Source of the DNA: Pseudomonadota bacterium
Lineage (GTDB): Bacteria; Pseudomonadota; Gammaproteobacteria; Burkholderiales; Rhodocyclaceae
NCBI GenBank assembly: GCA_018261895.1
Contig: JAGTRT010000038.1
Location: 1-64,000, forward strand
Direction of reading: 5' to 3'
DNA length: 64,000 nucleotides
Numbering within the stretch: position 1 is the first letter of the stretch; every line of letters begins with the position of its first letter. Under the pieces are notes generated by a model, which was not told the DNA's origin, searched no databases, and saw only the letters and a program-made list of their open reading frames with translations. The position numbers were made by a program, and so were the translations under genes. Positions 30 to 62,964 of the stretch are shown in pieces.

Positions 30-64
30 ATTTCAGTTTTAGCCGTTTTTTCCGGTTGACCGTC
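30..64 (+). repeat. CCGGTTGACCGT-family repeat, copy 1
   Basis: Member of a family of about 34 bp found ten times in this window. The left half resembles ATTTCAATTTTGGCC and the right half TTTTTTCCGGTTGACCGT. This copy has two differences in the left half and a perfect right half, and runs on into AAATCGTGCC, a flank also seen beside copy 9. It lies upstream of the dRS3-like palindromes. Strand is given as the strand carrying the T-rich form. Confidence 0.85.
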
Positions 65-75
65 AAATCGTGCCC

Positions 76-138
76 TGTCATTCCCGCGCAGGCGGGAATC
101 CAGGCGGCCGATGGATTCCCGCTTGCGCGGGAATGACA
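76..138. repeat. paired dRS3-like palindromes (NIME-like unit)
   Basis: Two 20-bp units fit the pattern ATTCCC-N8-GGGAAT exactly, at 80-99 and 115-134. The outer arms TGTCATTCCCGCG (76-88) and CGCGGGAATGACA (126-138) are inverted repeats, so the whole segment can fold into one long stem. The pattern is the published consensus of Neisseria dRS3 elements, which occur in pairs flanking RS units in intergenic mosaic elements. That this is the same family, rather than a look-alike REP in another betaproteobacterium, is inference. Confidence 0.75.
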
Positions 139-502
139 AGCGGCAGAGGTTAATCTGCGACGCCTTGGGGGCCCCCGTGGAAGGCGCTGAGCAACCCAGG
201 GGGGCCGGGAGCTTTCGGCTTGCCTTGTCTGAGCCGAAGGCGAGTTCTGGCAAGCCGCCCGGCCCTCCGAGTAGCGCAAGGTACCGGGCAAAGCCCGGCG
301 CCGCCCCCGGGGTCGCCTTTTCTTTGGCTACTTTCTTTTGGCGAAGCAAAAGAAAGTACGCTCGCCGGTCAGCGGCGAAACCCAGCGTCTCAGAAAACAC
401 CGCCCGCGCGTCAGGCGCGGAAACCAGCGCTTCAGCAAAAACACACGCCAAAAGCGCAGAGGCGAAACCCGTCGTTGGCCAAAGCCAACAACAACCACCC
501 CC
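139..502. repeat. dispersed intergenic element with 11-bp hairpin; no gene
   Basis: This 364-base stretch holds no convincing gene. It contains a perfect inverted repeat, ACTTTCTTTTG (330-340) and CAAAAGAAAGT (347-357), with a 6-base loop. About 360-470 carries imperfect direct repeats of the type GAAACC(C)AGCG followed by CAG and an A-run. From memory, near-identical segments with the TTTCTTTTGGCGAAGCAAAA core recur in many beta- and gammaproteobacterial genomes and are often mis-annotated as small proteins. The open frames here overlap each other on both strands and look like products of composition. Confidence 0.6.
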
Positions 503-1270
503 TCACCCCCGCCGCCGCACAACCTCAAACAAGCAAACCGCCGCTGCGGCCGCCACATTCAGCGACTCCACCGCCCCGGGCATGGGAATCCGGATCCGCA
601 ACGAGGCCGCCTCAATCAATTCCTTCCGCACCCCCTGCCCCTCTGCCCCGAACACCCAGGCAACCGGGCCATCCAGCCGCGCTGCATAGAGCGAGGTGGC
701 ACCATCCAGACAGGTCACGGCGGTCGTGCCTTCGTAATCGGCCATGAACACGGCGAGATCAACGTCTTCGTGAATGGCCAGGGCAAAGTGTGCGCCTTGA
801 CCGGCACGCAGTACCTTGGGCGACCATGCCGCGGCGCAGCCCGGTGCCAACAGCGCCTGGCCAATGCCGGCTGCAGCTGCCGTGCGCAGCAGCGTCCCGA
901 CGTTGCCGGGATCCTGCACGCCATCGATCAAAATGGCATCTTTTTTCCGGTTGACCGCAACATTGGCCCGGGGTGTCTTGACCAGCGCCAGCAGGCCGCT
1001 CGGGGTGTCGACCAGGCCAAGATCGCGCATCAAGGCATCGGCGAGCACGACCACGTCTCGCCCCTCGACAAAACGGGCTACTTCGCCACCGGCCACGGCT
1101 GATTCGGTGACGATCAGGGTTTCCACCGGCCCGAATGCGGCCTCGTAGGATTCGACCAGATGCACGCCGTCAAGCAGCGTCTGCCCCGTTTTCCGGCGCT
1201 CGCGCCCGGATTCGGCCAGCCGCTTGAGCGACTTGAAGAACGGGTTGTCGCGCGACTGGATGAGCTTCAT
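503..1270 (-). CDS. TrmH/SpoU-family RNA 2'-O-methyltransferase
   Basis: A 255-aa SPOUT methyltransferase that should methylate a ribose 2'-OH in rRNA or tRNA using SAM. Residues 1-95 form the substrate-binding N-terminal domain typical of the longer TrmH proteins. The three SPOUT motifs are visible: [12 protein letters not shown] at 120-131, WVFGAEGQG at 205-213 and the [12 protein letters not shown] stretch at about 229-240, which forms the trefoil knot. The ATG at 1270 overlaps the rnhB stop by four bases (ATGA), implying translational coupling as the last gene of the lpxB-rnhB run. Residues 104-115, in the linker between the domains, are encoded by repeat copy 2. The exact RNA target (rlmB-like or another) cannot be read from the sequence. 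Confidence 0.9.
927..957 (+). repeat. CCGGTTGACCGT-family repeat, copy 2 (inside a CDS)
   Basis: The right half TTTTTTCCGGTTGACCG is perfect over 17 bases, while the left half is degenerate (ATCAAAATGGCATC). It lies within the TrmH-family gene and is read there as [12 protein letters not shown] on the minus strand, in the linker before the SPOUT domain. Confidence 0.65.
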
Positions 1271-1857
1271 AGCAGGGAAAGCTGTTTCGCCACCGGGCCG
1301 AAACTGCGTCGATGGACCGGCGACGCACCATGTTCTTCCAGCGCCTGAAAATGTGCTGCGGTCGGGTAACCCATGTGCCGGTCGAAGCCGTACATCGGGT
1401 ATTGCGCGTGCAGGGCCAGCATTTCGGCATCGCGGGCGGTCTTGGCGAGAATCGACGCAGCAGCGATCGAGGCGATCTTGCCATCGCCCTTGACCACGGC
1501 TTCGCACGGCATGTCCAGTTTCGGGCAGCGATTGCCATCGACCATCGCGGCGGTCGGGCGCACGCTCAGCCCGGCCACGGCGCGCTGCATGGCCAGCATC
1601 GTCGCATGCAGGATGTTCAGGCGATCGATCTCCTCGACCGAGGCGGACGCCACCGACCAGGCCAGCGCCCTCTCACGGATCAGCACGGCCAGCGCATCGC
1701 GCTTTTTCTCGCTGAGCTTCTTCGAGTCGTTCAGCCCCGGAATCGGTCGCTGCGGGTCGAGAATGACGGCCGCCGCGACCACCGTACCGGCCAGCGGCCC
1801 ACGTCCAGCCTCGTCTATGCCACAGACGAGCCCTTCCGGAACGATCAGTTCAGGCAT
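1267..1857 (-). CDS. rnhB: ribonuclease HII
   Basis: A 196-aa enzyme that cleaves RNA in RNA-DNA hybrids and single ribonucleotides in DNA. The N-terminal signature [12 protein letters not shown] starts at residue 13 and supplies catalytic Asp15 and Glu16. Asp108 in MVDGNR and Asp143 in KTARDAE complete the four-acid metal site. The length is normal for the family. It overlaps the 3' end of lpxB by 13 bases and the next gene by four, the usual lpxB-rnhB arrangement of proteobacteria, so it is probably expressed from the same transcript. Confidence 0.97.
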
Positions 1858-2990
1858 TCGATGACCGCGTTGGCGGCCTTCTCGGCGGTGTTCTGGCGGA
1901 GTTGCAGATGCATGTCGGTAAATGCCGCCTCGACGGCCTCGGCATTTTCCTTGTCTTCGTAGAGCTTGATCAGCGCTTCGGCCAGTTTCTCGGGCGTCGC
2001 CTCATCCTGCAGCAGTTCGGGTACGACGTAGCGCCCGGCCAGAACATTCGGCAAGCCGACGTAGGGCAGATAGGCCATGCGTTTCATGAGCCAATAGGAA
2101 AACTTGGCGATCTTGTAGGTGATGACCATCGGCCGCTTGATGAGCGCTGCTTCGAGCGTCGCCGTACCGCTGGCAACCAGCGACACATCGGCGGCCCCCA
2201 AGGCATCCTGCGCATGCCCGAAGAGCAGCCGGAACGGCACATCGCCCGCCTGCTGCCGATAAATCGCCGCCTCGAACTGCAGGCGCGTTTCACGGGTCGC
2301 CAGCGGCACGACGAAAATCGCATTGGGGAAGCGTTCGCAAATGAGCTTGGCCGTCTGCACGAAGGTGTCGGCCATCATGGCCAGTTCGCCCTGACGGCTG
2401 CCCGGCAGCATGCCGAAAATCGGATAGTCACGCGGCAGCGCCAGTTTCTCGCGCACCGCCTGCTTGCTGGTCTGCAGGGGAATGATGTCGGCCAGCGGAT
2501 GACCGACATAGGTTACCGGGATGTGCTCTTTTTCGTAGAGCGGCGGCTCCATCGGGAAAAGCGCAAGAACGCGATTGACCGCACGAGCGATCTTCTTGAT
2601 GCGCCCACCCCGCCATGCCCAGATCGATGGGCTGACGTAATGGATGGTCTTGACGCCAGCCGACTTGAGGCTGGTCTCCAGGCCGAGATTGAAATCCGGC
2701 GCGTCGACGCCGATGAAAATGTCCGGCTGGATGTCGAGCAGACGCTTCTTCAACTGCCGGCGAATGCCGGAAATCTCGCGGTAATTCTTGAGCGCGTCGA
2801 CATAACCCATGACCGACAGCTTTTCCATCGGCCACCAGGCCTCGAACCCGTGAGACTCCATGCGCGGACCGCCAATGCCAAAAAACACGGCATCGGGCAG
2901 ACGCGCCTTCAAAGCGGCGATCAGGTGGCTGGCCAGAAGATCCCCGGAGGGCTCCCCTGCCACCATGGCAATGCGTACAGCGCGACCCAT
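1845..2990 (-). CDS. lpxB: lipid-A-disaccharide synthase
   Basis: A 381-aa GT19-family glycosyltransferase that joins UDP-2,3-diacylglucosamine to lipid X to give the lipid A disaccharide, at the inner face of the cytoplasmic membrane. The N-terminal MVAGEPSGD motif (residues 9-17) and the FGIGGPRM segment are diagnostic. The upstream open frame extends further, but the ATG at 2990 lies one base after the lpxA stop and matches the family start. It sits in the lpxD-fabZ-lpxA-lpxB block. Confidence 0.97.
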
Positions 2991-2991
2991 A

Positions 2992-3762
2992 TCAGCGAAT
3001 GATGCCTCGCTTGGACACCTCAAGGAAATCGACGAAACGCTGGACATCCGGCTGCGTCCTGGCATCCTCGGCCAGCTTGCTCTTCGCTTCTTCGAGCAAC
3101 AAACCCGACTTGTAGAGCGTACGGTAGGCACGCTTGAGCGAAGTGATCGACTCAGCGGTGAAACCGCGACGCTTAAGGCCTTCGACATTGATGCCGTACG
3201 GCGTCGCCGTATTGCCGGCCGCCATCAGGTAGGGCGGCACGTCCTGGAGAATCACCGTGCTGACCGCCGTCATCACGTGTGCGCCAATCCGGCAGAATTG
3301 ATGGACACCGGTAAAACCGCCCAGAATGGCCCAATCGTCCACCACGACGTGGCCTGCCAGCGACGCATTGTTGGCAAAGGTAACCTTGTTGCCCACCTGG
3401 CAATCGTGCGCAATATGCACGTAGGCCATGATCCAGTTGTCGTCACCCAGGCGCGTAACGCCCGCATCCTGCACGGTCCCCAGATTGAAAGTACAGAATT
3501 CGCGAATGGTGTTGCGGTCTCCGATTTCCAGACGCGTCGGTTCACCTGCGTACTTCTTGTCCTGCGGCACTTCACCCAGCGAACAGAACTGGAAAATGCG
3601 GTTATCGCGACCGATCCGCGTATGACCGCGAATCACGGTGTGCGGGCCAATCACGGTGTTGTCGCCGATTTCCACATCCGGACCGATAATCGAATACGGA
3701 CCGATCTCGACGTTGGCGCCAATCTTGGCAGCCGGATCGACAATGGCTGTCTGATGAATCAT
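2992..3762 (-). CDS. lpxA: UDP-N-acetylglucosamine O-acyltransferase
   Basis: A 256-aa protein that catalyses the first step of lipid A synthesis, moving a 3-hydroxyacyl chain from ACP to UDP-GlcNAc in the cytoplasm. The first 190 residues are hexapeptide repeats forming a left-handed beta helix. The catalytic base matching E. coli His125 is His119 in HIAHDCQVG. The C-terminal third is the helical LpxA domain. Only one base separates it from fabZ and from lpxB, so the three genes are almost certainly co-translated. Confidence 0.97.
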
Positions 3763-3763
3763 G

Positions 3764-4198
3764 TTACAGCTTCCGCTGAGCGCACATCAGGCGGGCTTCG
3801 GCCACCAGCTGGCCATCCACGCGAGCCTCTCCCTTGAACTTCCAGACACCCCGCATCTGACGTTCGATCTCAGCATGCAGATGCAACTGATCGCCCGGCA
3901 AAACGGGCTTCTTGAAACGCGCCTCGTCGATACCGGCAAAGTAGAACACTGTATCGGCAGACGGCTTTTCGTCCATCGACTTGAACGACAGGATGCCGGC
4001 AGCCTGGGCCAGTGCTTCCATGATCAACACTCCAGGCATCACCGGATGGTGCGGGAAATGCCCCTGGAAGAACGGCTCATTGATCGTCACATTCTTGTAG
4101 GCATGGATGGACTTGCCCAGTTCGATTTCCACCACACGGTCTACCAGCAAAAACGGGTAACGGTGGGGCAAATGCTCCATGATTGCTTGAATATCCAT
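3764..4198 (-). CDS. fabZ: 3-hydroxyacyl-ACP dehydratase
   Basis: A 144-aa hot-dog-fold dehydratase of fatty acid elongation. The [13 protein letters not shown] segment (residues 10-22) and [13 protein letters not shown] with catalytic His47 and Glu61 are present, with the 14-residue spacing of characterised FabZ proteins. Its position between lpxD and lpxA is the classic one. It competes with LpxA for 3-hydroxyacyl-ACP, so shared expression may balance phospholipid and lipid A synthesis; that last point is established in E. coli, not seen here. Confidence 0.97.
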
Positions 4199-4202
4199 TT
4201 AC

Positions 4203-5249
4203 TCAATCCCCTATATCTTTTTCTTTAAGTAACTTTTCGAGTTCGGAAACACGATCGGCCAATTTGGAGAGCCGACGAATGTGCGATGCATTGCGCATCC
4301 AGTGCTCGTAGCTATCCAGCGGGAAAACACTGGCATAAACCCCACCCGGTTCGACAATGCTGCGCATCACGGTCGAGGCACCAGAAATCGTCGTATTGGG
4401 CGCCAGGGTCAAATGCCCGCTGATCATCGATGCACCACCCAGGATGCAATGCTCGCCCAGCGTCGTGCTGCCAGCCATTCCCGTGCAACCTGCAATGACC
4501 GAGTAGGGCCCGATATTGCAGTTGTGCCCGATCATGACCAGATTGTCGATCTTGCATCCTTCACCGACGGTCGTGTCATCCAGCGCACCGCGATCAATGG
4601 TCGTATTGGCGCCAATTTCGACATCGTCGCCGATCACCACGGCACCGATTTGCGGAATCTTCACCCATTCCTTGCCATCTGGCGCGAAGCCGAAACCATC
4701 CGCGCCGATCACGACGCCGGAATGCAGGACCGCCCGCTTGCCAATACGGCAACCAAAATAAATGGTGACATTCGGGTAGAGAACGCTGCCCTCGCCAATG
4801 GTCACCCCATCGCCGATAACGCATCCGGCATGGATAATTGAACCCTCACCAATGCTGACATCCTTGCCGATGCAAACATGCGGCCCGACAAATACCGAAT
4901 CAGGAACAGCAGACCCGGTGACAGCACTGGGGTGAACACCCGGCGTCGACGTCGCTGGCGGATTCAACAAGGTCGCAACGCGCGCATAGTAAGCGTACGG
5001 ATTGCTGGTCACGATGCGCGGCCCGGAAAATCCTTCAGCCGCATCCGGCGCCAGGATCACCGCCGCCGCTTGGGTCGTCTGCAACTGGTTGCGATACTTG
5101 CGATTGGCCAGGAAGGCAATCTCACCCTCTCCCGCAGAAGCCAGGGTCGCCACTTGCGATATGCGCGTTTGCCCGTCTCCAAGCACATCGCCGCCCAGTT
5201 GGGCGGCGATGTCGGCTAGAGTATGGGAAATCCGGCCTTGGCCGTTCAT
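4203..5249 (-). CDS. lpxD: UDP-3-O-(3-hydroxyacyl)glucosamine N-acyltransferase
   Basis: Third enzyme of lipid A synthesis, adding the amide-linked 3-hydroxyacyl chain. The roughly 348-aa protein has an N-terminal uridine-binding domain (about 1-100), a long run of hexapeptide repeats, a conserved MIGHNCNIG motif with the likely catalytic His, and a C-terminal helix ending in a charged coiled segment. A GTG at 5252 directly precedes the ATG at 5249; both overlap the skp stop, so the start could be either. A four-base overlap with skp implies coupling. Confidence 0.95.
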   Translation of the reverse strand: MNGQGRISHTLADIAAQLGGDVLGDGQTRISQVATLASAGEGEIAFLANRKYRNQLQTTQAAAVILAPDAAEGFSGPRIVTSNPYAYYARVATLLNPPATSTPGVHPSAVTGSAVPDSVFVGPHVCIGKDVSIGEGSIIHAGCVIGDGVTIGEGSVLYPNVTIYFGCRIGKRAVLHSGVVIGADGFGFAPDGKEWVKIPQIGAVVIGDDVEIGANTTIDRGALDDTTVGEGCKIDNLVMIGHNCNIGPYSVIAGCTGMAGSTTLGEHCILGGASMISGHLTLAPNTTISGASTVMRSIVEPGGVYASVFPLDSYEHWMRNASHIRRLSKLADRVSELEKLLKEKDIGD

Positions 5250-5752
5250 CACTTGCCTTCCGACAAGGCCTTGATCACGCGATCCGTAATATCAAGACGC
5301 GGGCTGACCCAAACGACGTCCTGGAGGATCAGGTCATATTTTTCGCTCTCGGCGATCTGCTTGATCGCCTTGTTGGCCTTCTCGATGACCGCCGCATTCT
5401 CTTCGTTCTGGCGGAGATTCAGGTCCTCACGGAACTCGCGCTGGCGACGCTGGAATTCACGGGAAATCTCGCCAAACTCCTTCTCCTTGGCACGACGTTC
5501 ACTTTCCGCCATGGTCACGGAATTCTTTTCCAGATTCTCCTGCAGACCTTGCAACTGCTTGGCCATGCGCTGCAGATCCTGATCGCGCTTGGCAAACTCG
5601 CCTTCCAGCTTTTTGGCTGCCTTCTGGGCTGCCGGCGCATCACGGAAAATACGCTGGGTATTGACGTAGCCAACCTTCAACTCGGACGCAATTGCCCCTG
5701 AGATGCACAAGGCCGACAACAACGATGCGAGAACTACTGACTTGATTTTCAA
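5249..5752 (-). CDS. skp: OmpH/Skp periplasmic chaperone
   Basis: A 167-aa periplasmic chaperone that holds unfolded outer membrane proteins for the BAM complex. It has a signal peptide of about 22 residues ending ISGAIA before SELKVGYV, followed by long charged helices (about 45-130) that form the tentacles of the trimer, then a short C-terminal strand region. It lies directly downstream of bamA, its functional partner, and upstream of lpxD. Confidence 0.95.
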   Translation of the reverse strand: MKIKSVVLASLLSALCISGAIASELKVGYVNTQRIFRDAPAAQKAAKKLEGEFAKRDQDLQRMAKQLQGLQENLEKNSVTMAESERRAKEKEFGEISREFQRRQREFREDLNLRQNEENAAVIEKANKAIKQIAESEKYDLILQDVVWVSPRLDITDRVIKALSEGK

Positions 5753-5767
5753 CTTGAGACTCCTGAT

Positions 5768-15393: not shown

Positions 15394-15458
15394 GCAGCAG
15401 AACAGGCGATCCGGAAGATCATTCAGCATTTTGCTTGCGCCCCGCGACCCCCTCCGAA

Positions 15459-15493
15459 ATTTCAATTTTGAGCATTTTTTCCGGTTGACCGTC
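15459..15493 (+). repeat. CCGGTTGACCGT-family repeat, copy 3
   Basis: A close match to the family consensus over its whole length, lying in the divergent gap between rpsB and map, about 100 bases before the map start. The flank continues as ACATCC, similar to the R-N-ATC extension of other copies. Confidence 0.88.
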
Positions 15494-15591
15494 ACATCCC
15501 GGGAAACGCCGCCACGGGGCTCCCGGCTTTGCGAAACCAGCCCCATCATTTATCCTTGCCCTTTCCCCCAACGCATCACAGAACAGCCGCC

Positions 15592-21008: not shown

Positions 21009-25245
<4,237 letters not shown>

Positions 25246-28200
25246 TTAAGCCGCATCCCTCATTTTCAAGGCTTCCTGAATGTCCACTTCCACCACGCGC
25301 GACACGCCGCTTTCCTGCATGGTGACGCCGACCAGCTGTTCGGCCATTTCCATCGCGATTTTATTATGGGAAATGAACAGGAACTGCGTTGCGCCTGACA
25401 TTTTCTTGACCATTTCGCAGAAGCGCTCGGTATTGCTGTCGTCCAGCGGCGCATCGACCTCGTCGAGCAGGCAGAACGGCGCCGGGTTGAGCTGGAACAT
25501 CGAGAAGACCAGCGCGATGGCGGTCAGCGCCTTTTCACCACCCGACAGCAGGTGGATGGTCGAATTCTTCTTGCCCGGCGGCTGGGCGATGACCTGCACG
25601 CCGGCGTCGAGGATTTCGTCGCCGGTCATGACCAGCTCGGCGCGCCCGCCCCCGAACAGTTCCGGGAAAAGCTTGCCGAAATGGCCGTTGACCGTGTCGA
25701 AGGTGCTTTGCAGCAGGTCGCGCGTTTCGCGGTCGATGCGGCGGATGGCGTTTTCCAGCGTTTCCATGGCCTCGGTCAGGTCGGCCGCCTGCATGTCGAG
25801 GTAGCCCTTGCGCTCGGTGGCTGTTTCGAGCTCCTGCAGCGCTGCCATGTTGACGGCGCCGAGTTCGGCGATGGCGTTGGTCAGGCGGGTGATTTCGCCC
25901 TGCAAGGCCGGCGGCCGGGCGGTGCCCAGCTCGGCCTGCAGCGCCTCTTCGTTGGCGCCGGCTTCGAGCAGTTGCATGGCGAACTGCTCGGCGTTGAGCG
26001 CCGCCGCCTGCTCTTTCAATTTGAGATCGCCGATGCGGGCACGCAGCGGTTCCAGCCCCTGCTCGATGCGCAGACGTTGTTCCTCGAACCCGCGCAGCGC
26101 GTTGGTTGCCGCTTCAAGCGCATCGCGCTTCTCGGCCAGCGCTTTCTCAGCCACCTGACGCGCTTCGAGCGCCGCCTGCAGCGCGCCTTCCATGACATCC
26201 GGCGGCGCCGCCTCGACCTGCTCGGCACACTGGGCGCGATCCTTCTCGATGCGGTTGAGTTCGCGCTGGGCCATGGCCTGCTGGGCGAAAACGTCCTGCA
26301 GCTTGCCCTCGCATTCGCGCAGCGAGAACTGAGCTTCGCGCAGGGCGCGGTCGAAATCGGCGTTGCGCTCGCGCTCGGCGCGCACGGCGCGTTCGCATTC
26401 GTCGAGCCGTGTTTGCGCGCCATGGACCAGCACGCGGATGCGGCTCAGCCCGTCGCGGATTTCCTCGATGCGCTCGTCGGCGGCCATTTCGCGCTCGCGC
26501 TCGCCCTCTTCTTCCTCGGCCAGTTCGGCCAGTTGTTCCTGCAGGCGCTCCGCACTTCCATCTGCACGGCATGCACGCGCTGCTGGCGGTCGGTGACGTA
26601 CTGGCGGATTTCATCCATTTCCGCCTGCTTGTCCTCGACCTGCTCGTCGAACATGACCAGCTGCTCGCGGATGGCGTCGGCCTTTTCCTCGGCCATGGCG
26701 ATCCCGTCGCCGAGCGCCTCAATCTCGCGCTGGCGTTCGAGCAGGCCGTGTTCGCCTTGATCCGGCGCGAAGAAGGTGACGCTCGCTGCACTGACCAGGT
26801 CGCCGCCGCGCGTCACGATGACCGCCCCCGGCGGCAGCTCGGCCCGCTTGGCCAAGGCGTCGGCCAGCGTTTCCGCCGTGCGCACCTGGCCCAGCCAGTC
26901 GTCGAGCACGGTCTGGATCGCCGGATCGTCGCTGCGCACGTGCGCCGAGAGCGATTCGACGGTCAACCGGAAATTTTGCCCAAAATTGAAATCGCCCGGC
27001 AGCATGACGCTGAGCCGCGCTTCCGGCCGGTCGTGCAGCCAGGCGTCGAGCTTGGCCGGATCGCTGCAGGCGATGGCGCTCAGCCGCTCGCGCAGCACGG
27101 CTTCGACCGCCTCTTCCCAGCCGGCCTCGACGTGAATCTTCTGCCACAGCGGCGGCGCGTTTTCGAGGTCGTGGCGACGCAGCCATTCCGGCAACTTGCC
27201 GCTCTGCTGGGTGCGCGCCTGCATCTGCTCAAGCGCCGCCCGGCGGGCCTGACCGGCGGCCAGTTCGCGCTCGATGCGCTGCAGTTCGGCCTGCGCTTCC
27301 TTGCGCCGGGCCTCGACCTGCGGCATTTCCTGCTGCAACTGTTGCAACTGATCCTGATCGCCGGCCAGTTCCTCGCGCAGCAGGCTGAGTTCTTCTTCCT
27401 TCTCGGCCAAGTCCATTTCGTCCGGCGCGTCGTTGCCACCGGTTTCCTCGCGCAGACGCTCGCGGCGCAGCGTGATGGCCTGCAGCGCGCGCTGGGCGTG
27501 CGCCTTGTTGGTCAGTTCGACTTCGAGCTTCTGCTCGCCATTGGTCGTGCGCGTCTTGAGGCGCTGCAGTTCTTCCTGCGCCTGCGTGTGGTCTTCCTCG
27601 ACCTGCGGCGCGATATTCATGTGCTCGTGCAGCTTGGCCTCGGCCTCTTCGACGCGCAGCTTGGTGATCTCCTGCGTCTCTTCCCACTTCAGCCGGTCTT
27701 CAGTCAGCTTCTCGGCCGTCTCGCTCCAGTGCTTGAGCTCGTCCTCAAGCTGCGTCAGGCGCGCTTCCAACTGGCTGCGCGATTCGCGGCGATGGCGGAT
27801 TTCCGCTTCCAGCCGGGCGACTTCGGCGTTGGCGGCGTACATGTCGCTCTGCGCGTTGTGCAGCGCGTCGCCGGCGGCGAAGTGCGCTTCGCGGGTCTCC
27901 TCGGCGCGCGCCTCGGTTTCGCGCAGCGCGGCGTTCTGCGCTTCAAGATCGGTCGTCGCGCGCTCGACGTCGAGCGACAGCTTTTGCCGCTCGGCCTCAG
28001 CCTCGCGCTTTTTCAGCAGCCACAACACCTGCTGGCGCTGGACCAATTGTTCGTTGAGCGCCTGATAGCGCCGCGCCACTTCGGCCTGGACTTCCAGCCG
28101 CTCCATCTGGTTGCCGAGTTCCTGGCGGATGTCCTCGACGCGCAGCAGGTTTTCGCGGGTGTCTTCGAGGCGGCCGTTCGTTTCCTTGCGCCGTTCCTTG

Positions 28201-28718
28201 TAGCGCGTGACGCCCGCCGCTTCCTCCAGAAACACCCGCAGATCGTCCGGCCGCGCCTCGATGATGCGCGAGATCATGCCCTGGCCGATGATGGCGTAGG
28301 CACGCGGGCCGAGACCGGTGCCGAGGAAGAGATCGGTGATGTCCTTGCGGCGGACCTTCAGGTTGTTGATGAAGTAGTCCGACTGCCCCTGCCGCGTCAG
28401 CGTGCGCTTGACCGACAGTTCGGTGTATTGCGACCACTGGCCGAGCGCCCGGCCCATGGTGTTCTCGAAAATCAGCTCGACGGACGCCCGCGACACCGGC
28501 TTGCGGTTCGACGAGCCGTTGAAGATGACGTCCATCATCGATTCGCCGCGCAGCTCCGACGCCTTCGACTCGCCCAGCACCCAGCGCACGGCATCCATGA
28601 TGTTGGATTTGCCGCAGCCGTTGGGGCCGACGACGCCGACCAGCTGGCCGGGAACAGCGACGGCAGTCGGATCGACGAAGGATTTGAAACCGGAGAGTTT
28701 GAGCTTGGTTAAACGCAT
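25246..28718 (-). pseudogene. smc: chromosome segregation SMC ATPase, one-base frameshift
   Basis: SMC condensin subunit, expected to work with ScpAB in chromosome compaction. The N-terminal part (start ATG 28718) has the Walker A loop GPNGCGKSN at 31-39 and long coiled coils. The C-terminal part (25246 to about 26550) has the signature [11 protein letters not shown] and Walker [13 protein letters not shown]. The two halves are in different frames: near 26551 the minus strand reads ATGGAAGTGCGGAGCGCC, and one extra base after GTGCG would restore MEVRERLQEQ and a 1157-aa protein. As written, translation ends at 26445 after about 757 residues. Either a real mutation or an assembly error; smc loss is usually costly, which favours the latter. 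Repeat copy 5 encodes residues about 576-587 in the hinge region. Confidence 0.9.
26958..26992 (-). repeat. CCGGTTGACCGT-family repeat, copy 5 (inside smc)
   Basis: An almost complete family match whose only clear change is in the central run (AAAATTT in place of the T-run). It is read in smc as FNFGQNFRLTVE, in the poorly conserved hinge. The right flank continues GAATCG, like copy 7. Confidence 0.85.
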
Positions 28719-28740
28719 GCGTGATTCCGGCAGGGCCAAT

Positions 28741-28768
28741 GCCCCCGCCATGTTGGGGGCCGTATAAT
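28741..28768. promoter_or_regulatory. possible divergent promoter with hairpin
   Basis: The 94-base gap between smc and the deaminase contains GCCCCC/GGGGGC (28741-28746 with 28755-28760) and a TATAAT at 28763-28768 on the plus strand. No good -35 element is visible at the right distance. Confidence 0.3.
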
Positions 28769-28812
28769 ACCACCGACTATTTGATCGCCCGGCCCTCAGG
28801 AAGGATCGCCAG

Positions 28813-29283
28813 ATGACGGATGACCAGTTTCTCGCCCGCGCCATCGAACTGGCCCGGCAAGGCAGCGAAAGCGGCGAAGGCGGCCCGTTCGGCGCCGTCA
28901 TCGTCCGCGACGGCCAGATCATCGCCGAAGGCTGGAATCGCGTCGTCGCCAGCCACGACCCCACGGCCCACGCCGAAATCAGCGCCATCCGCACCGCCTG
29001 CGCCGGCGCCGGCAGCTTCCACCTGCATGGCTGCACCCTCTACGCCTCGAGCGAACCCTGCCCGATGTGCCTCTCCGCCGCCTACTGGGCGCGCATCGAC
29101 CGCATCGTCTTCGCCAACAGCCGCGCCGAAGCCGCCGCCATCGGCTTCTGCGACGACGAGCTGTACAGCGAACTGAACCGCCATTTCTCGGCGCGCAGCA
29201 TCGTCATGGTGCACCACCCCCTGCCCGGCGCCCTCGAACCCATGGAACGCTGGGCCGCCAATCCCGGTCGAACCCCCTATTGA
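28813..29283 (+). CDS. guanine deaminase-like nucleoside/base deaminase
   Basis: A 156-aa zinc deaminase of the cytidine-deaminase fold. The catalytic HAE is at residues 53-55 and the zinc motif PCPMC at 82-86. The EGGPFGAVIV start and an aromatic C-terminus (ERWAANPGRTPY) resemble the small GuaD guanine deaminases rather than the tRNA deaminase TadA. Substrate guanine is inference. It runs divergently from smc, with GGAAGGAT upstream of the ATG. Confidence 0.8.
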   Translation: MTDDQFLARAIELARQGSESGEGGPFGAVIVRDGQIIAEGWNRVVASHDPTAHAEISAIRTACAGAGSFHLHGCTLYASSEPCPMCLSAAYWARIDRIVFANSRAEAAAIGFCDDELYSELNRHFSARSIVMVHHPLPGALEPMERWAANPGRTPY

Positions 29284-32331: not shown

Positions 32332-32614
32332 ACGGCTGCGTTGGCCGACGAGCTGAACTAGGCACATCAGGCAGTTTTCGGGGTTGAGCTGCCGTTCGAA
32401 TGACCTCAATTCCAAATTGGTGACGGTCCGGTTGTGGCCGACTGTTGCCTCTTGCATCAACGGGAACGCGATTTCGGCACTCGGCGTAACCGCAGAGCGG
32501 AATTCCCGGAAATTCTGTCAAAACTTCCCGATTCAGATTTCCACGGTCTACCGGAAAAAACTGCCAAATTTGAAATGCCTTCGGCTGGGCGACGGCCCCG
32601 CTCTCGGAAATGCG
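32332..32614. other. gene-free stretch with repeat copy 6
   Basis: About 280 bases between the membrane protein and the convergent SDR gene. Apart from the repeat at 32543-32576 I see no gene, promoter or clear terminator here. Confidence 0.5.
32543..32576 (-). repeat. CCGGTTGACCGT-family repeat, copy 6
   Basis: Matches the family with GTAGACC in place of GTTGACC, the same change as copy 4, and one or two changes in the left half. It lies 38 bases beyond the stop of the SDR gene, in the same orientation as copy 7 on the other side of that gene. Confidence 0.85.
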
Positions 32615-33298: not shown

Positions 33299-33366
33299 GT
33301 TTTTCCCTCCGAAAAAGTCCGGTCATAGTCATGGACAGGCGACGCCAGCGCAAGTTTAGCGATTCC

Positions 33367-33400
33367 ACGGTCAACCGGAAAAAAGGGCCAAAATTGAAAT
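33367..33400 (-). repeat. CCGGTTGACCGT-family repeat, copy 7
   Basis: A near-perfect member 68 bases upstream of the SDR start, in the divergent gap before the symporter gene. The right flank continues GGAATCG. Confidence 0.9.
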
Positions 33401-33475
33401 GTGCGCGCTGACCGTCCCGGCCGAAAACCTGGGCAATGCCGCTAGAATGGCGCTGCCTGAACTTCACGCATCCCG

Positions 33476-36889: not shown

Positions 36890-37273
36890 TCAATTTCGAC
36901 GGTCAACCCGAAAAATCAGCCGATTTCCAAATTTGTCCTCGCCGCTCCCTTCGAAGGAACGGCAGGTCATGGCCTGCCAGCGCACCGGCACTTCCCGGCC
37001 GTCGCTGCAACGCACCGTACCGCTGCCGCGTTCGCCGTCGCAACTGCCCGGCACGGGCGACACATCAGGCGGCGACAACTGGCCGTCGCACTGCAATCGC
37101 CCCTCGCGGTCGGCCAGCACAAAGCGCCCGCCGCCCGCCGTGTTGCCGGGATAGCCCTTGCCACGCAACTCGCCCGGCACGTCGCTCAGGCTGCCGCGCG
37201 CCTGGTAGCCGAAGGCGCAAGCGCCCAGCAGCAGCGGCACAACGAGCATCAGTGAGGTTCCGAATTTGTTCAC
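36890..37273 (-). CDS. small lipoprotein, 127 aa
   Basis: A probable lipoprotein of unknown function: GTG start at 37273, Lys3, a hydrophobic stretch and the lipobox LLLGAC with Cys19. An alternative ATG at 37249 would remove the only N-terminal positive charge. The mature part has four further Cys residues and a WQAMTCRSFEG segment near the end. Its last dozen residues (GNRLIFRVDRR, about 115-126) are encoded by repeat copy 8, so the present C-terminus may have been formed by repeat insertion. It runs divergently from dapC. Confidence 0.65.
   Translation of the reverse strand: MNKFGTSLMLVVPLLLGACAFGYQARGSLSDVPGELRGKGYPGNTAGGGRFVLADREGRLQCDGQLSPPDVSPVPGSCDGERGSGTVRCSDGREVPVRWQAMTCRSFEGSGEDKFGNRLIFRVDRRN
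36898..36932 (-). repeat. CCGGTTGACCGT-family repeat, copy 8 (in lipoprotein 3' end)
   Basis: A diverged member: the right end GGGTTGACCGTC is intact except for CCGG to CGGG, and the left half reads ATTTGGAAATCGGC. It overlaps the last codons and stop region of the small lipoprotein gene. Confidence 0.7.
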
Positions 37274-43552: not shown

Positions 43553-43610
43553 TTTCCGGTTGAAATCGTGCCTTTGACGGTCAACCGGAAAAAATGCCCA
43601 AAATTGAAAT
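43553..43610 (-). repeat. CCGGTTGACCGT-family repeat, copy 9, plus partial inverted copy
   Basis: The full copy is 43576-43610 and is almost identical to the consensus. Upstream, TTTCCGGTTGA (43553-43563) followed by AATCGTGCC repeats the right end and flank of copy 1 in the opposite direction but lacks the central CCGTC. The two facing pieces give an 11-bp inverted repeat (43553-43563 with 43581-43591) in the convergent gap between the spermidine-synthase-like gene and pepD. Confidence 0.9.
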
Positions 43611-43627
43611 TTTCGGGCAGGCGAAAA

Positions 43628-54326: not shown

Positions 54327-54332
54327 GTTTTC

Positions 54333-54728: not shown

Positions 54729-54732
54729 CGGT

Positions 54733-57017: not shown

Positions 57018-57026
57018 CCGCCGACT

Positions 57027-57698
57027 CTAGTGCGTCCGCCGCAGGAAGCTGCTCGCCCGCGACTCGTCGATGAGCTGCGCTGCTGTATCGATCTGCTTGC
57101 CCACTGCACGAACCATCAGCATTTGAAAGATGCGCGCCAGCAAGAGCGTATTGGCCATTGCATCGCGCCGGCCGGTACCGGCATCGAGCCCGAACACATC
57201 GATCCAGTGGTCGAGCGGCATAACGGAATCGCCCTTGTCTTCAAACATGGAGGGAAGCAGCCACGCCAGATCGACCCATTGCGGCTGGAAATCGACCCCC
57301 AGCCGCTCCTTGAGTGCGCGCTGCAAGAAGCCGCCTACATAAGGAATGTGATAGGTCACCAAAGGCGCCTTGGCGGCAAAGAGCAAAAATGCGGTCAATT
57401 GCCGGTCGACTGCAGCTCCCTCGCCATCGAGCGTCGAGAAATCGACGTAGAAAGTGTCGTCGGGCTGAATCGCCCCTTTCCACACCGAGCTGGCGGCAAT
57501 GCCTAACAGTTGGTCGCTGTCCGGGTTGGGGCCACTGCTCACGATATCAACGACCACGTAGCGCGTGTGGAAGTGAAGGTCAGTCAGCGACGGACTGGTA
57601 CTGTCGCGCCAAACGTCCAGCGAAGCACGCACATCGCCGGGAAGGCTGGCGGGTGCGCTGCCCCGGAACAGAAATTTCTTGAGCCCGAGCATGGTCAT
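57027..57698 (-). CDS. degenerate DnaQ-fold exonuclease-like protein
   Basis: A 223-aa protein with the DEDD exonuclease fold but without its catalytic set. Motif I reads VVVDIVSSGPNPDSD (Val where DxE needs Glu); motif II reads TYHIPYVGGFL (no Asp); motif III has RRDAMANTLLLA (Asn in place of the last Asp). It is probably a non-catalytic binding or regulatory protein. It overlaps the next gene upstream by four bases (ATGA) and lies ten bases before the symporter. Confidence 0.75.
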   Translation of the reverse strand: MTMLGLKKFLFRGSAPASLPGDVRASLDVWRDSTSPSLTDLHFHTRYVVVDIVSSGPNPDSDQLLGIAASSVWKGAIQPDDTFYVDFSTLDGEGAAVDRQLTAFLLFAAKAPLVTYHIPYVGGFLQRALKERLGVDFQPQWVDLAWLLPSMFEDKGDSVMPLDHWIDVFGLDAGTGRRDAMANTLLLARIFQMLMVRAVGKQIDTAAQLIDESRASSFLRRTH

Positions 57699-59671
57699 TG
57701 CACCTGGTAATCGAGTTTGAGGCGCGTCTGGATCTTGCGGGCCTGACGGAAGGATTCCTTCAGGATGCGGCGATCCAGTTCGTTGAGCGTATCGGGATCG
57801 ATCAGGTTGTCGCCCTGCGTACCCGGTTCGCCTTCAAGGTACTGGTGTTGCAGGCGAAGCAACTGGATGAAATTCAGGCCTTCGAGAACGGCATTGATTT
57901 CATCGCTGCGGATCGACAGGCGCTGTGCCGCCAAGCGCAGGCGCTGAATGGAATTGGTGTTGTGCACGCCGCTGGCCATGGCGTAGATGCGGGCGACGTC
58001 GACGAAAATGCGCGAGCCGTACTTCTTGAGATCGATCTTGCCGGGATGACCCGGTTCGAGATCGGTTAGGAAATCGCGGATCTTGCCCAGCGGCGGCTCG
58101 ACATCGAGTGCATTCTTGGCCATGGCCCGCAGGAACATCGGATTGGAAGCTGTCTGGGCCAGCAGGTGGCGACGCATCGCATCGGCCAGTTCCGACTTGC
58201 CGTAGAGCGCGCGGAAGTCGAAGAAGATGGTCGCGTTAAGCAACGCGTCGGGTTGCGGCATGCGAATCCAGTTGCTGAACTGATCCTTCCACTCCTCAAG
58301 CGTCAGGCACCACTGCGGGTTGCTCGCCATGATGTTGCCCTTGCACAGCGGGAAGCCGCAACGGTCGAGGTCGTTGTTGACGTCCAACGCGTAGGCCAGG
58401 AAGCGCTTTTTCAGGTCTTCAACCGACGCGCCTTCCGGCACCTGGAAGACGATTCCGTTATCCTGGTCCGTACTGAAGGTCTGCTCGTCGCGGCCCTCCG
58501 AGCCAAAGGCCAGCCAGGCCCACTCAATGCCGTCGAAGTTGTGGTTTTCGAGATTGAGTTGGATGACACGGCGGGTCAGCGCATCATTCAGCGCGGAAAT
58601 GAACTGGGTAAGCTGCTCGGCACCGACGCCTTGCGCCAGCATGTTGAACGAGAGCTGGCGCACATCGGCTGCCGCCTGCTGCAAGGCCGCCACATCACTG
58701 GCGCCATCGATGGCCTGGCGAATCTGACGCAGGCCGACGCGCTGCAGCGAGAAGAGATCGCGCTCGGAAACGACTCCGGTCAGCTTGCCCTCGGCATCGG
58801 TGACCAGAACGTGGCGGATGCCATGAGTGGCCATGGCGAACATCGCATCGTAGGCGGTAGCATGTTCTTCCAGCATGAACGGGCTCGGCGACATGGCCTG
58901 ACTGACCGGGGCAGTCAGCGGCAGATCGGCGAGAACGACACGATCCAGCAAGTCGGAGCGGGTGAAAACACCGACCGCCTTGCGGTCGTCGCCGGCGACG
59001 ACGAGCGACCCGACCCCCGCCTTCGACATGGTTTCCAGTGCTGCCCGCAACGGCGTCTCGGGAGAGACGGTCACCGGCGAGCGGGAACCGATGCCGGCCA
59101 GCGGCGAATTGAGGGTCTGCTGCTCACTGGCACGCTGCGAAAACTGCAACTGCAACTGGCGACGCGACTGGTCGAGCAAGCTGGCGATGTAACGCGTGCA
59201 GAACAGGTTGAATTCGGGGCTGGACGTCAGCAGCGCGAGAAAATCCTCGGCTGGCAACTGGTAGCAGAAGGTATCTTCCACTGCCGTATAGACGTTGGTC
59301 GATGGACGTCCCGCCGTCACGGCGCCGATCGGGAAACTCTCCCCTGCCCCCAGGCTGAGGATGGAATATTCGGTGACGGTCACTTCGCCGGCTTGGCGCG
59401 CCTGCACCTTGCCGGATTCGATGAGGTAAAAGTAACGGACCTTGCCGGAATCGGGGCCGACGATCTCGCTGCCTGCCGCGTAGAAAACGATTTGCGCCTT
59501 TTCGGCAAAACGCTGCAGTGCGTCCGGCTGCATCTTGTTGAACGGTGCGTGGTTGCGCAGGAAGGCCTGGGTATTGCTCGCCATGCGGGCTCGCCCGTCC
59601 TGGCGCAATGACATTTCGACATGACCGACGGCCTGCTGTTGTTCTTGCCCCGATTGCTGTTGCGTAGTCAC
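57695..59671 (-). CDS. cNMP-binding/CBS/DUF294 nucleotidyltransferase-like protein
   Basis: A 658-aa cytoplasmic signalling protein. The domains are: a cyclic-nucleotide-binding fold (about 30-150; AAGSEIVGPDSGKVRYFYLIESG split by loops), a pair of CBS domains (about 205-330), and a DUF294 nucleotidyltransferase-like domain with GSEGRDEQTFSTDQDNG (about 393-409), then a helical substrate-binding domain (to 650). The nucleotidyltransferase residues G-S and D-x-D are present, so it may modify a partner protein, as GlnD does; this is inference. The start is GTG. Confidence 0.85.
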   Translation of the reverse strand: MTTQQQSGQEQQQAVGHVEMSLRQDGRARMASNTQAFLRNHAPFNKMQPDALQRFAEKAQIVFYAAGSEIVGPDSGKVRYFYLIESGKVQARQAGEVTVTEYSILSLGAGESFPIGAVTAGRPSTNVYTAVEDTFCYQLPAEDFLALLTSSPEFNLFCTRYIASLLDQSRRQLQLQFSQRASEQQTLNSPLAGIGSRSPVTVSPETPLRAALETMSKAGVGSLVVAGDDRKAVGVFTRSDLLDRVVLADLPLTAPVSQAMSPSPFMLEEHATAYDAMFAMATHGIRHVLVTDAEGKLTGVVSERDLFSLQRVGLRQIRQAIDGASDVAALQQAAADVRQLSFNMLAQGVGAEQLTQFISALNDALTRRVIQLNLENHNFDGIEWAWLAFGSEGRDEQTFSTDQDNGIVFQVPEGASVEDLKKRFLAYALDVNNDLDRCGFPLCKGNIMASNPQWCLTLEEWKDQFSNWIRMPQPDALLNATIFFDFRALYGKSELADAMRRHLLAQTASNPMFLRAMAKNALDVEPPLGKIRDFLTDLEPGHPGKIDLKKYGSRIFVDVARIYAMASGVHNTNSIQRLRLAAQRLSIRSDEINAVLEGLNFIQLLRLQHQYLEGEPGTQGDNLIDPDTLNELDRRILKESFRQARKIQTRLKLDYQVQ

Positions 59672-59687
59672 GACAACCTCGTTTTTC

Positions 59688-60743
59688 TCAAAGTGAATAG
59701 TTTAACTTGAGACGCTGTTGCAGGCGTTTGGCCTGTTTCAATGTCTCGCGCAGGATGGCCCGATCGACGTCATTCAATGCGGCGGGCTTCAGGCCATACC
59801 CCCCCGCCTCACCTCTGGCAACTGCTTCAATTTGCTGCGCCAGCCGCAGACGCAGGATTTGTGAGAATGCAGCTTCAATCGAGGCAATCTCCGTCACCGG
59901 CAAACCGACCGCGGCACCGGCCTGACGCAGGCGTTCGGCGGTACTGACCGATTCGGCGCCCGTCGACAGCGCAAAGATGCGGGCGGCATCGACAAAGATC
60001 CGGCTGCCGTACTTTTTGAGATCGACGCTCTCGCCTTCGTCTACGGCGACCTCGCCGCGGAAGTTCAGCGGGACATCGACCTGCAACGCATTGCCGGCCA
60101 TGAGATGCTGGAAGGATGGCGTGGCGACGGTCATCGACAGCAGCAGCTTGCGCAGCTTTTCACCGAGGATGAACTCGCCGAACAAGGGGCGCAGATCGAA
60201 GAAAATGCTGGCATTGAGCAGCGCCTCTGGCTCCGGGCGGCGCACCCAGTCGATGAACTTCTCGCGCCACTCCTCGAGCGACAAACACCAGGCCGGGTTG
60301 CCGGCCATGATCTTGCCGGAACACAGGGCAAAGCCGCAGTCGGCCAAATGCTGATTCACGTCCTGCGCGAACGGCTGGAAAATCTGGCGCAGGGCGGCTG
60401 CTTCCTGGCCGCTGGTCGCGTTGAAGATGAGGCCGTTGTCCTGATCGGTGACGAAGGTCTGTTCGTGACGCCCTTCGGAACCGAGGGCCAGCCAGCACCA
60501 GGCGACCGGCGGCAGGCGATGGCGGCTGGCCGTCAGCGCGATGACCTTGGCGGTCAGGCGATCATTGAAGACCGAAATCAGGCGCGTGGCGACAAGCCCG
60601 TCGAGTCCGCCGGCCACCGCCTTGAGCAGGTGTTCGCGCAGACGAATGGCCAGGGATGGCGCCGCCTCCAGGGATTTCAGCGCTTCGAGCGCCGCAACCA
60701 GATCAAGTTGCTGCCGGCAGGGCAGCGTAAATTCGGAATTCAC
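59688..60743 (-). CDS. DUF294 nucleotidyltransferase-like protein without sensor domains
   Basis: A 351-aa paralogue of the previous protein lacking the cNMP and CBS domains. The conserved segment GSEGRHEQTFVTDQDNG matches it closely, as do VNQHLADCGFALCSGKIMA and VDLKKYGSRIFVDAARIFA. A tandem duplication with loss of the sensor part is the simplest origin. It lies 16 bases upstream of the longer gene and seven bases after the exonuclease-pseudokinase. Confidence 0.85.
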   Translation of the reverse strand: MNSEFTLPCRQQLDLVAALEALKSLEAAPSLAIRLREHLLKAVAGGLDGLVATRLISVFNDRLTAKVIALTASRHRLPPVAWCWLALGSEGRHEQTFVTDQDNGLIFNATSGQEAAALRQIFQPFAQDVNQHLADCGFALCSGKIMAGNPAWCLSLEEWREKFIDWVRRPEPEALLNASIFFDLRPLFGEFILGEKLRKLLLSMTVATPSFQHLMAGNALQVDVPLNFRGEVAVDEGESVDLKKYGSRIFVDAARIFALSTGAESVSTAERLRQAGAAVGLPVTEIASIEAAFSQILRLRLAQQIEAVARGEAGGYGLKPAALNDVDRAILRETLKQAKRLQQRLKLNYSL

Positions 60744-60750
60744 GGCAGCC

Positions 60751-62916
60751 TCAATATTTCACCCGGGCGAAATAGGTTTTCTCCGCCGCTTCCAGGGCTT
60801 GGCGGACAGTGACAATACCCATGTCCTCGAGCAGCTTGACGAGCTTGAGGAAAACCTCGCCGGTCGCCAACGCGTCTTCCAGGGCGTTGTGCCGCGTACC
60901 GATGGTGATGCCGAGGCGCTCGAGAATGACGTCGAGTTTGTGGGATTCCTGATTGGGGTGAACGACGGACGACAGCAGCAAGGTATCGAGTACCGGCTGG
61001 GTGAAACGGATGCCGGTACGCTCTTCCTTGAGTTGCAGGAAGCGCATGTCGAAGGCCGCGTTGTGGGCGATCAGTACGGTATCTTCGCAGAACTCGTGGA
61101 AGGCCGGCAGGACGACATCAATGGTCGGCTGGCCGCGCACCATGTCTTCGGTGATGCCGTGAATGGGGATCGATTCGGGCTTGAGCGGGATTTCCGGATC
61201 GAGGATCTGGTTGAAGGTTTCCTGCCGCAACAGGCGGCCATTGACGATCCGCGCAGCGCCGATCTGGATGATCTCGTCGCCGTTCGAGGGCTCAAGGCCG
61301 GTCGTCTCCGTATCGAACACGGTGTAGGTCAGATCGGAAAGCTTGCGGTCGAGGTCGATCGTCTTGTCCTCGAACTTGAAGAGGTCGAAGTCGTAATACT
61401 CCGGGCGACCATTGCCGCGCGAACGTTCTTCCTGCTCGTGCTCGATTTCCGGAATGGCGACCGGCAGGACGAAACGGAAGAAAGCGCGGTGCGCGGCCTT
61501 TTCGCGCTCGTACCAGATCTCGCCGCCATGGCGGTCGATGACGTCGCGCAGGCTGAGCGGCGAGGTTTCGCTGCCGATCTGCATCGACTCCATTTCCCAG
61601 GTGTAGAAAGTCTCCGACGACATCGCCGGGCCAGCCCAGATGAGGTCGAGGTAGGCCAGTCGGCCGGCGGAGGTCAGGCGGAAGCGGAGTTCGCGCGGCT
61701 CGTAGTGATCCTGCAGCTTGGAGGCCAGCGATACGATGGCAAAGACGAGCGAGAAGCTGTCTGCCTTGATCCACAGGGCGTCGTCGAGTTCTTCGGTCTT
61801 GGTCGGCAGCTTGAGCTTGTCGTCGATGCGGCGCTGGGCGGCGGCCACGATGTCGATGCCCAGGACGTCTTCGAGCGGCCAGCGGGTCTTGATGGCGTCC
61901 GAGAACTGGCTCATGGTCTGGTCGATGACCACGCTGCGCTTGGAGACTTCGTCGTCGATGACGCGCAGGAAGCGTTCGCGCAGCTCGGCTTCCATGTCGG
62001 GGTAGTCGAGCAGGTTGGCGACCGCCGCGCGGATGTTGCCGATGGCTGAACGACTGCCCTGGGTCAGCGCGTGCAGGGCCTGGTCGCGCCTTTCTTCTTC
62101 CTCGATGCTGCGCGTGATGTTCTCGACGGTCAGCACGTAGCCGCTCATCTCGGCGTGGCTGTCGGCATGGATCAGCACCGGCACCATCTGGACGCGGAGG
62201 AGCTGGCCGCCGCGGGTGGTGGTGATGAAATTGGCGATGGCGTTCTTGCCGGCAGAGAGGCGCTGGCGAATGACCTCTTCGGCGTGTTCGACCTGGCTCT
62301 TTTCAAGAATGGAAAAGATCGAACGTCCGAGGCCGATCAGTGCCCCGCCGGCGACCGACGTCGGTCCCTGCGACAGGGCCTTGAACTGCAGGCGGGCGCG
62401 GTTGTTGTAGAGCAGGATGCGGCCATCGAGGTTACACACGACCACGGCCTGGGCCAGTTCGGACATCAGCGCGGCGAGCCGGTTCTTTTCTTCCTCGACC
62501 GAGGCCTTGGCCGTGGCGATTTGCGAATCGACGTCGTCCATGAGCGCGTCGCGCTGCTGGGCGAGGTCGTTGGCGGCCTGGGCGAGTTGCTGGACTTCCG
62601 GCGGCCCTTCGATGGTCACGCGGAAATTGCGGTTGGCGCCGAGCATGAGGCGCAGCGTTTCGGCCATGCGCAGCAGGCCTTCGACGTACTGCTTGAACAG
62701 CTTGTGCAGCACCAGCACGCCGATCACGAAGCCGAACACGGTCATCATCGTGCCCACCGGCAGGCGCGACAGCAACAGCTCGGTGAGCATCGTGCGCTCG
62801 GCTTCCTTCATGTCCAGCCAGACGAGCAGCGAGGTCACGACGAAGGGCCCGGTCATGAGCAGACCGAGGACGATCACCGCCAGGATGAAACGATGTTTAG
62901 CCTTCATGGCAGACAT
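60751..62916 (-). CDS. membrane pseudokinase fused to DEDDh 3'-5' exonuclease
   Basis: A 721-aa fusion. Two membrane helices (about 10-33 and 53-72), a HAMP-like linker and coiled coil, a PAS domain (about 150-270) and a histidine-kinase-like region (280-490) precede a DnaQ-family exonuclease (530-710). In the kinase part the HELRTPL box reads QGSRSAI (Gln286 for His) and the N and G1 boxes are not recognisable, though RHGGEIWYE remains, so it is probably a pseudokinase. The nuclease is intact: DTETTG (535-540), HNAAFD (618-623) and HNALED (676-681). A membrane-tethered nuclease tied to a sensor is unusual. Confidence 0.85.
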   Translation of the reverse strand: MSAMKAKHRFILAVIVLGLLMTGPFVVTSLLVWLDMKEAERTMLTELLLSRLPVGTMMTVFGFVIGVLVLHKLFKQYVEGLLRMAETLRLMLGANRNFRVTIEGPPEVQQLAQAANDLAQQRDALMDDVDSQIATAKASVEEEKNRLAALMSELAQAVVVCNLDGRILLYNNRARLQFKALSQGPTSVAGGALIGLGRSIFSILEKSQVEHAEEVIRQRLSAGKNAIANFITTTRGGQLLRVQMVPVLIHADSHAEMSGYVLTVENITRSIEEEERRDQALHALTQGSRSAIGNIRAAVANLLDYPDMEAELRERFLRVIDDEVSKRSVVIDQTMSQFSDAIKTRWPLEDVLGIDIVAAAQRRIDDKLKLPTKTEELDDALWIKADSFSLVFAIVSLASKLQDHYEPRELRFRLTSAGRLAYLDLIWAGPAMSSETFYTWEMESMQIGSETSPLSLRDVIDRHGGEIWYEREKAAHRAFFRFVLPVAIPEIEHEQEERSRGNGRPEYYDFDLFKFEDKTIDLDRKLSDLTYTVFDTETTGLEPSNGDEIIQIGAARIVNGRLLRQETFNQILDPEIPLKPESIPIHGITEDMVRGQPTIDVVLPAFHEFCEDTVLIAHNAAFDMRFLQLKEERTGIRFTQPVLDTLLLSSVVHPNQESHKLDVILERLGITIGTRHNALEDALATGEVFLKLVKLLEDMGIVTVRQALEAAEKTYFARVKY

Positions 62917-62930
62917 TCCGACAAATTGTT

Positions 62931-62964
62931 ATTTTGATTTTGGCCGTTTTTTCCGGTTGACCGT
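62931..62964 (+). repeat. CCGGTTGACCGT-family repeat, copy 10
   Basis: Left half ATTTTGATTTTGGCC with two changes, perfect right half, flank GAGATG as in copy 4. It lies between the pseudokinase-exonuclease gene and the response regulator, separating them into likely different transcripts. Confidence 0.88.

Follow-up and report, generated by a model that had tools for sequence, protein, structure and literature searches.

A dispersed 41-bp motif that probably serves as a DNA uptake sequence in one genus of Azonexaceae

Self-specific DNA uptake has been described from two families of bacteria only, according to PMC12616744. In the Pasteurellaceae, for example Haemophilus influenzae, the uptake signal sequence (USS) occurs in hundreds of copies in genes and in the gaps between them and has arisen by substitution (PMC1626085), and it joins a short core to two AT-rich tracts lying on one side, with dialects between sub-clades (PMC1626085 and PMC12616744). 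The DNA uptake sequence (DUS) of the Neisseriaceae is continuous and up to about 13 nt long (PMC12616744). Here we describe a motif repeated ten times in the first 64,000 nucleotides of contig JAGTRT010000038.1 (assembly GCA_018261895.1, a member of the Rhodocyclaceae in the lineage given), hereafter the window. Judged from its letters, placement and distribution, this motif is very probably a DNA uptake sequence, that is, a self-recognition signal for natural transformation, of one Azonexaceae genus. Its best explanation, which we put forward as a strong prediction, is that it is the first uptake sequence outside the Neisseriaceae and Pasteurellaceae. No report of an uptake sequence in Rhodocyclales or Azonexaceae, or of the core string, was found in literature that excluded preprints and held few subscription papers.

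The conserved stretch is about 41 bp long. It runs from ATTT through a segment resembling CRAWTTTGGSC, a single unconstrained base, a tract (T6 or AAAATTT) and the string CCGGTTGACCGT to a purine-rich tail. Outside these 41 bp the flanks hold almost no information in a logo built on loci chosen by an exact 18-mer, the core of which is strict by construction. Logos anchored on the octamer GTTGACCG alone place the T6 or A-T tract at positions -9 to -4, AATTTT at -20 to -15 and ATTT at -25 to -22. The core is GTYGACCG, and the AT tracts are centred about 10 and about 21 bp to one side (upstream) of its centre, at one and two helical turns; a core with one-sided AT tracts at helical-turn spacing is the layout of the Pasteurellaceae-type USS. 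Among 84 sites of the genome to which the window belongs, 54 have the T-run and about 25 the AAAAAATT/AAAATTT form, which is a regular sub-type.

Within the window, a 41-position profile trained on sites of this same genome returns, at 12 bits or more, exactly the ten copies collected in Table 1, the weakest being copies 2 and 4 (27.5 and 36.0 bits) and the remaining eight scoring 43.6-69.7 bits. The 14-mer TTCCGGTTGACCGT with up to three mismatches is found 22 times against 6.1 expected, a count reached in 0 of 100 shuffles. The original prediction had named ten dispersed copies at about these positions, and all of them are present. It had given them an extent of about 35 bp and a T-run throughout: the copies are real and their conservation reaches about 41 bp, and the T-run form holds except in copies 4 and 5, which carry AAAAAATT or AAAATTT instead. 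The non-palindromic dispersed family that it described, unlike repetitive extragenic palindromic (REP) or clustered regularly interspaced short palindromic (CRISPR) repeats, is genuine and apparently undescribed.

Table 1. The ten motif copies in the 64-kb window, with their profile scores.
Copy	Position	Strand	Context and form	Profile score (bits)
1	29..69	+	intergenic, T-tract form	62.4
2	924..964	+	antisense in SpoU-type rRNA methyltransferase gene (Pfam), weak upstream tract	27.5
3	15458..15498	+	intergenic, adjoins ribosomal protein S2 gene, T-tract form	66.4
4	23096..23136	+	antisense in ligA, A-tract form	36.0
5	26953..26993	-	in frame (sense) in smc hinge loop, peptide DFNFGQNFRLTVES, AAAATTT form	55.8
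6	32537..32577	-	intergenic	60.0
7	33361..33401	-	intergenic	69.7
8	36893..36933	-	3' end of predicted open reading frame	43.6
9	43571..43611	-	intergenic	67.4
10	62930..62970	+	intergenic	62.9

The motif is not confined to the window. In its own genome, an assembly of 93 contigs that totals 3.30 Mb and is 85% complete, TTTTTTCCGGTTGACCGT with up to two mismatches occurs 402 times, 197 forward and 205 reverse, and the reversed pattern not once. The genome-wide count that the original prediction had proposed as a check is thus far above chance. The profile finds 85 sites in 435 kb of own contigs and none with either the Markov control or the reversed profile, a density that extrapolates to roughly 640 sites per genome. 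An unsupervised word count ranks pieces of the motif as the most over-represented 10-mers and 12-mers in two samples of this genome. In the T-tract form, the strands are also balanced in G002 (233 forward, 242 reverse), which is the closest relative met and 99% identical over a 300-aa piece of smc, and in the complete genome G042 (187 and 170). Hundreds of copies in both orientations, as uptake sequences have them, are therefore present in all three genomes.

Sites lie both in genes and in gaps, with the intergenic excess of an uptake sequence. Of 85 own sites, 31 are inside called genes, 11 cross a gene end and 43 are intergenic, at a coding fraction of 0.889; for 329 sites in 1.2 Mb of G042 the figures are 176, 36 and 117, at 0.853. 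These shares are approximate because some genes are absent from, or misplaced in, the gene calls made here: whole clusters were missed (4.5-12.2 kb of L175), and a false plus-strand gene was called over smc at copy 5. In H. influenzae, 65% of USS are coding (PMC1626085). A number of sites appear to code for signal peptides or for C-terminal tails. Intervals between sites vary less than expected by chance, both in the own genome (coefficient of variation 0.76 against 0.97 simulated, fraction 0.007) and in G042 (0.80 against 0.93, fraction 0.001).

Distribution among relatives is patchy within the genus, and counts outside it are low. The T-tract form is abundant in eight of 60 genomes of the genus, the own one included (198 to 480 copies); of the rest, some are intermediate and many near nil. 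A dialect-neutral pattern (five A/T, 15 free bases, GTYGACCG) is bimodal, with 251 to 992 copies in 39 of 76 congeneric genomes and at most 126 in the other 37. Among 63 genomes outside the genus, eight of other genera of the family have at most 8 copies and 55 others of the order at most 18; reversed controls of the pattern reach at most 35. Logos from 100 kb of each of four relatives show that G029 and G038 have GTYGACCG with different neighbours, the AT tract being kept at -20 to -16, and no GTYGACCG-type enrichment was seen in the 100 kb of G034 or of G046. Dialects with a conserved inner core, another trait of uptake sequences, are found in two of the four relatives sampled. Another over-represented word, GACAAGGATGCC, occurs in G034 at 8 per 100 kb (C1:1000001-1100000), possibly owing to one repetitive gene. 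A 30-genome SMC tree has carriers on both sides of its midpoint root and requires seven label changes, at least five of them forced by well-supported branches; we read this as an old trait of the genus that has often been lost, with repeated gain as the alternative. Several congeners without the T-tract form have GTCGACCG-like words in the same smc hinge loop that holds copy 5. A scan of named genomes with a long exact pattern, which matched two records and is no map over named taxa, gave as carriers an Azonexaceae metagenome-assembled genome (MAG), W9_Combined_metabat1_055, and the MAG CTSoil_120. Azonexaceae is a member of Rhodocyclales, and one named Azonexaceae carrier stands very close to the window genome, which supports the placement in that order adopted in the original prediction.

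Recently acquired DNA is poor in sites, as expected of an uptake sequence, although the cases are few and come from no separate survey of islands. Of 60 stretches of 20 kb sampled in G042, three have no site at all and resemble islands: one contains a Tn3 transposase and copper efflux genes, and two are low-GC with restriction-modification genes, one of these having a conjugation-type ATPase as well (10 of 39 called proteins in these stretches are annotated). A 33.7-kb element inside comEC of G002 also lacks a site. In G002 (C33:109608-143311; L186, L187) and in G043 (C1:2218693-2251157), about 33 kb interrupt this gene at one and the same profile position. The G002 insert starts with a serine recombinase and holds a type ISP restriction gene, a tyrosine integrase and a DinB-like polymerase, and it may be a competence-disabling element.

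Machinery for natural competence is present in the host and is not specific to carriers. The own genome encodes DprA and a ComEC in which all three expected domains are found. It also has type IV pilus genes, among them a FimT-PilVWX-PilY1-PilE-like cluster (named by Pfam matches and order), the last pilin of which matches the Pfam family ComP_DUS (PF16732) at about 77-78 bits. By eye, the integrity of comEC is unrelated to motif content, the gene being split or broken in motif-poor G034, G043 and G017 and in motif-rich G002 and G008; in the complete genome G034 it is broken between two frames (C1:1959178-1959913). No close counterpart of the own pilin cluster was found among the G002 pilins examined. 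The pilin at L179:8602-9291, which had looked carrier-specific among six genomes, was rejected as receptor when a wider search matched 70 of 75 congeners, the own and motif-poor genomes included.

How the copies arose bears on the idea, one of the options of the original prediction, that the motif is a small mobile element copied by a transposase (a miniature inverted-repeat transposable element, a product of REP sequences and their REP-associated tyrosine transposases, or similar). Such an element would suit the many near-identical copies and their enrichment between genes. Redfield et al. tested the Haemophilus USS as insertions by way of gaps relative to repeat-free orthologues (PMC1626085). 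Here, nine of the 31 coding sites were compared with orthologues in the carrier G002 and in the non-carriers G024 and G034, and the motif is present in G002 at all nine and absent from G024 and G034 in all 16 alignments. Eight of these alignments are gap-free over the site (Lgt, D-amino-acid aminotransferase and P-type ATPase against both genomes; LivM and an ABC ATPase against G034). The other eight differ in length by +6, +6, 0 (internal gaps), -2, -3, -9, +5 and +9 residues, and in none of the 16 is there the clean insertion of 13-14 residues that an inserted motif would give. Identity to G024 and G034 (seven coding sites each) is 0.61 and 0.59 within the site against 0.84 and 0.82 in the flanks, whereas over 10 sites compared with the carrier G002 the two values are 0.90 and 0.905. 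The three coding copies of the window were compared separately. Copy 4 aligns with ligA of motif-poor G034 over 400 bp without a gap, at an identity of 0.54 in the site and 0.76 in the flank; the copy 2 locus of G002 also carries a site, 401 bp being aligned gap-free (G024 and G034 do not cover this locus); and the smc hinge loop that contains copy 5 is of unequal length across 30 congeners. With half of the 16 alignments gap-free, none showing a clean insertion and divergence confined to the site, the compared coding copies have been built by substitution within otherwise conserved genes. This is the origin expected of an uptake sequence, and for these copies the insertion relative to empty orthologous sites that marks a mobile repeat was not found. 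As for intergenic copies, G002 has one in the interval corresponding to copy 3; at copy 9 G024 is shorter by 34 bases, which taken alone is compatible with insertion, and indels are therefore possible for some copies. There is no conserved flank beyond the 41 bp and no stable fold (one copy folded, z 0.69), and with the gap-free coding alignments contradicting it we give the mobile element next to no weight. A role as regulator site for transcription, as terminator or as RNA element is scarcely more probable. Intergenic enrichment and the position of some copies within 25 bp of gene ends would be expected of one, but 31 of 85 own sites and 176 of 329 in G042 are placed entirely within called genes, and on either strand. 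In tail-to-tail pairs exactly 8 bases apart, of which at least three cases occur (G000 C41:21670-21713; G140 C1:359185-359228 and C45:77948-77991), the T-run stands 5' of the stem and not 3' of it, as a terminator would have it. An RNA element was rejected, as the copies have no Rfam match and the one folded has no stable structure. A phage-borne repeat was likewise set aside, the exact 18-mer occurring in one stretch of the viral collection.

The main rival is that the motif binds a chromosome-organising protein inside the cell, one acting in nucleoid structure, segregation or repair; such a site, too, could have spread by substitution. Consistent with it are the length and conservation of this non-palindromic site, its occurrence both within and between genes, the even spacing and the tendency of neighbouring own sites to share orientation (51 of 76 pairs, p 0.004); absence from recently acquired DNA would be expected of it as well. 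In G042, however, this clustering is not significant (149 of 272 pairs, p 0.13), and orientation shows no association with GC skew, taken as a replichore proxy in this one genome (82/92 and 78/77). FtsK-orienting polar sequences (KOPS) and architecture-imparting sequences (AIMS) are short, abundant chromosomal words, strand-polarised by replichore; the motif is likewise abundant, but without replichore polarity in G042, and a replichore-polarised motif of this kind was rejected on that basis. Other features also count against a chromosomal function: the 37 of 76 congeners with few or no copies together with the repeated changes on the tree, the dialects between lineages and the USS-type layout. 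A constraint of about 40 bp over hundreds of copies, moreover, displaces coding sequence, which would be hard to maintain through selection for binding and is to be expected from biased uptake. The protein-binding site of the original prediction may be right in a broad sense; its distribution, however, is explained better by an extracellular receptor for DNA uptake than by nucleoid organisation, and we consider the chromosome-organising site unlikely, if far less so than the two preceding explanations. None of the three options originally offered (nucleoid organisation, regulator, mobile sequence) was an uptake sequence.

Several observations nevertheless weigh against an uptake sequence. Neighbouring own sites share orientation more often than expected by chance. 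Bakkali argued that compaction signals would be spaced more evenly than the known uptake sequences are; therefore even spacing by itself does not favour uptake. Inverted pairs, often terminators in USS and DUS, seem to be rare here: no pair is closer than 807 bp among 84 own sites, and G042 has a few close pairs. Half of the alignments to motif-poor genomes (8/16) are gapped in the site region, for example RecG with +6 residues, more than the 24% reported for the Haemophilus USS (PMC1626085), and to these is added the shorter G024 interval at copy 9. At about 41 bp, the motif is longer than the 32 nt of USS and the 13 nt of DUS (PMC12616744). ComEC and DprA, compared by eye, fail to separate carriers from non-carriers. 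ComP_DUS matches occur in 123 of 138 genomes (122 of them over the cut-off), among them genomes poor in the motif. G002 shares its motif with the own genome, yet its match reaches 45 bits against 77-78; this family is too widespread here and is therefore no evidence for the receptor.

Set beside the known systems, the motif seems to fit the general class of uptake sequences in most of the features tested. It is built like a USS, but on its letters it is not a member of the Pasteurellaceae USS: the inner core GCGG of that family is not found, and the cores there, AAGTGCGGT or ACAAGCGGT, are unrelated to GTYGACCG. The host also belongs to another class of bacteria, inverted pairs seem few, and the motif is longer. 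With the Neisseriaceae DUS it shares a betaproteobacterial host, genome-wide occurrence and the formation of dialects, and a ComP_DUS-family minor pilin is encoded in the own genome; the letters of the DUS we take to be unrelated to those of the motif. A third, independently evolved uptake system, old in the genus, repeatedly lost, dialect-forming and convergent in layout on the Haemophilus USS, is the likely, if less secure, extension of this reading.

Two further observations concern the window itself. A separate short palindrome-like sequence, CATTCCCGCGCAGGCGGGAAT, directly follows copy 1 (79-99). In smc (25246-29036) two overlapping minus-strand frames stand where G002 has a single frame of 1191 aa, and the split reads as a frameshift or assembly error near 26445-26487.

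If the motif is an uptake sequence, a model can be proposed by comparison with the known systems. The core GTYGACCG would be bound during pilus-driven uptake by a receptor on the cell surface, for which a minor pilin of the type IV pilus is the likeliest candidate. The AT tracts about 10 and 21 bp upstream may then help to bend or melt the DNA as it is pulled in, as in the Pasteurellaceae USS. Fragments with a good site would preferentially be taken up and recombined, and sites would accumulate over the genome by point substitution and biased recombination, not by transposition. Should the motif be such a third, convergent system, helically phased bending or melting, beyond receptor binding, would be a general requirement of sequence-specific uptake. 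The reason why self-specific uptake evolved is debated, and a third independent case, in the betaproteobacteria, would inform the choice between drive and selection. The many sequenced congeners with the signal, with another dialect or with none lend themselves to a comparison in which co-variation could reveal the receptor, and placing the motif on donor DNA might make laboratory strains of the group transformable.

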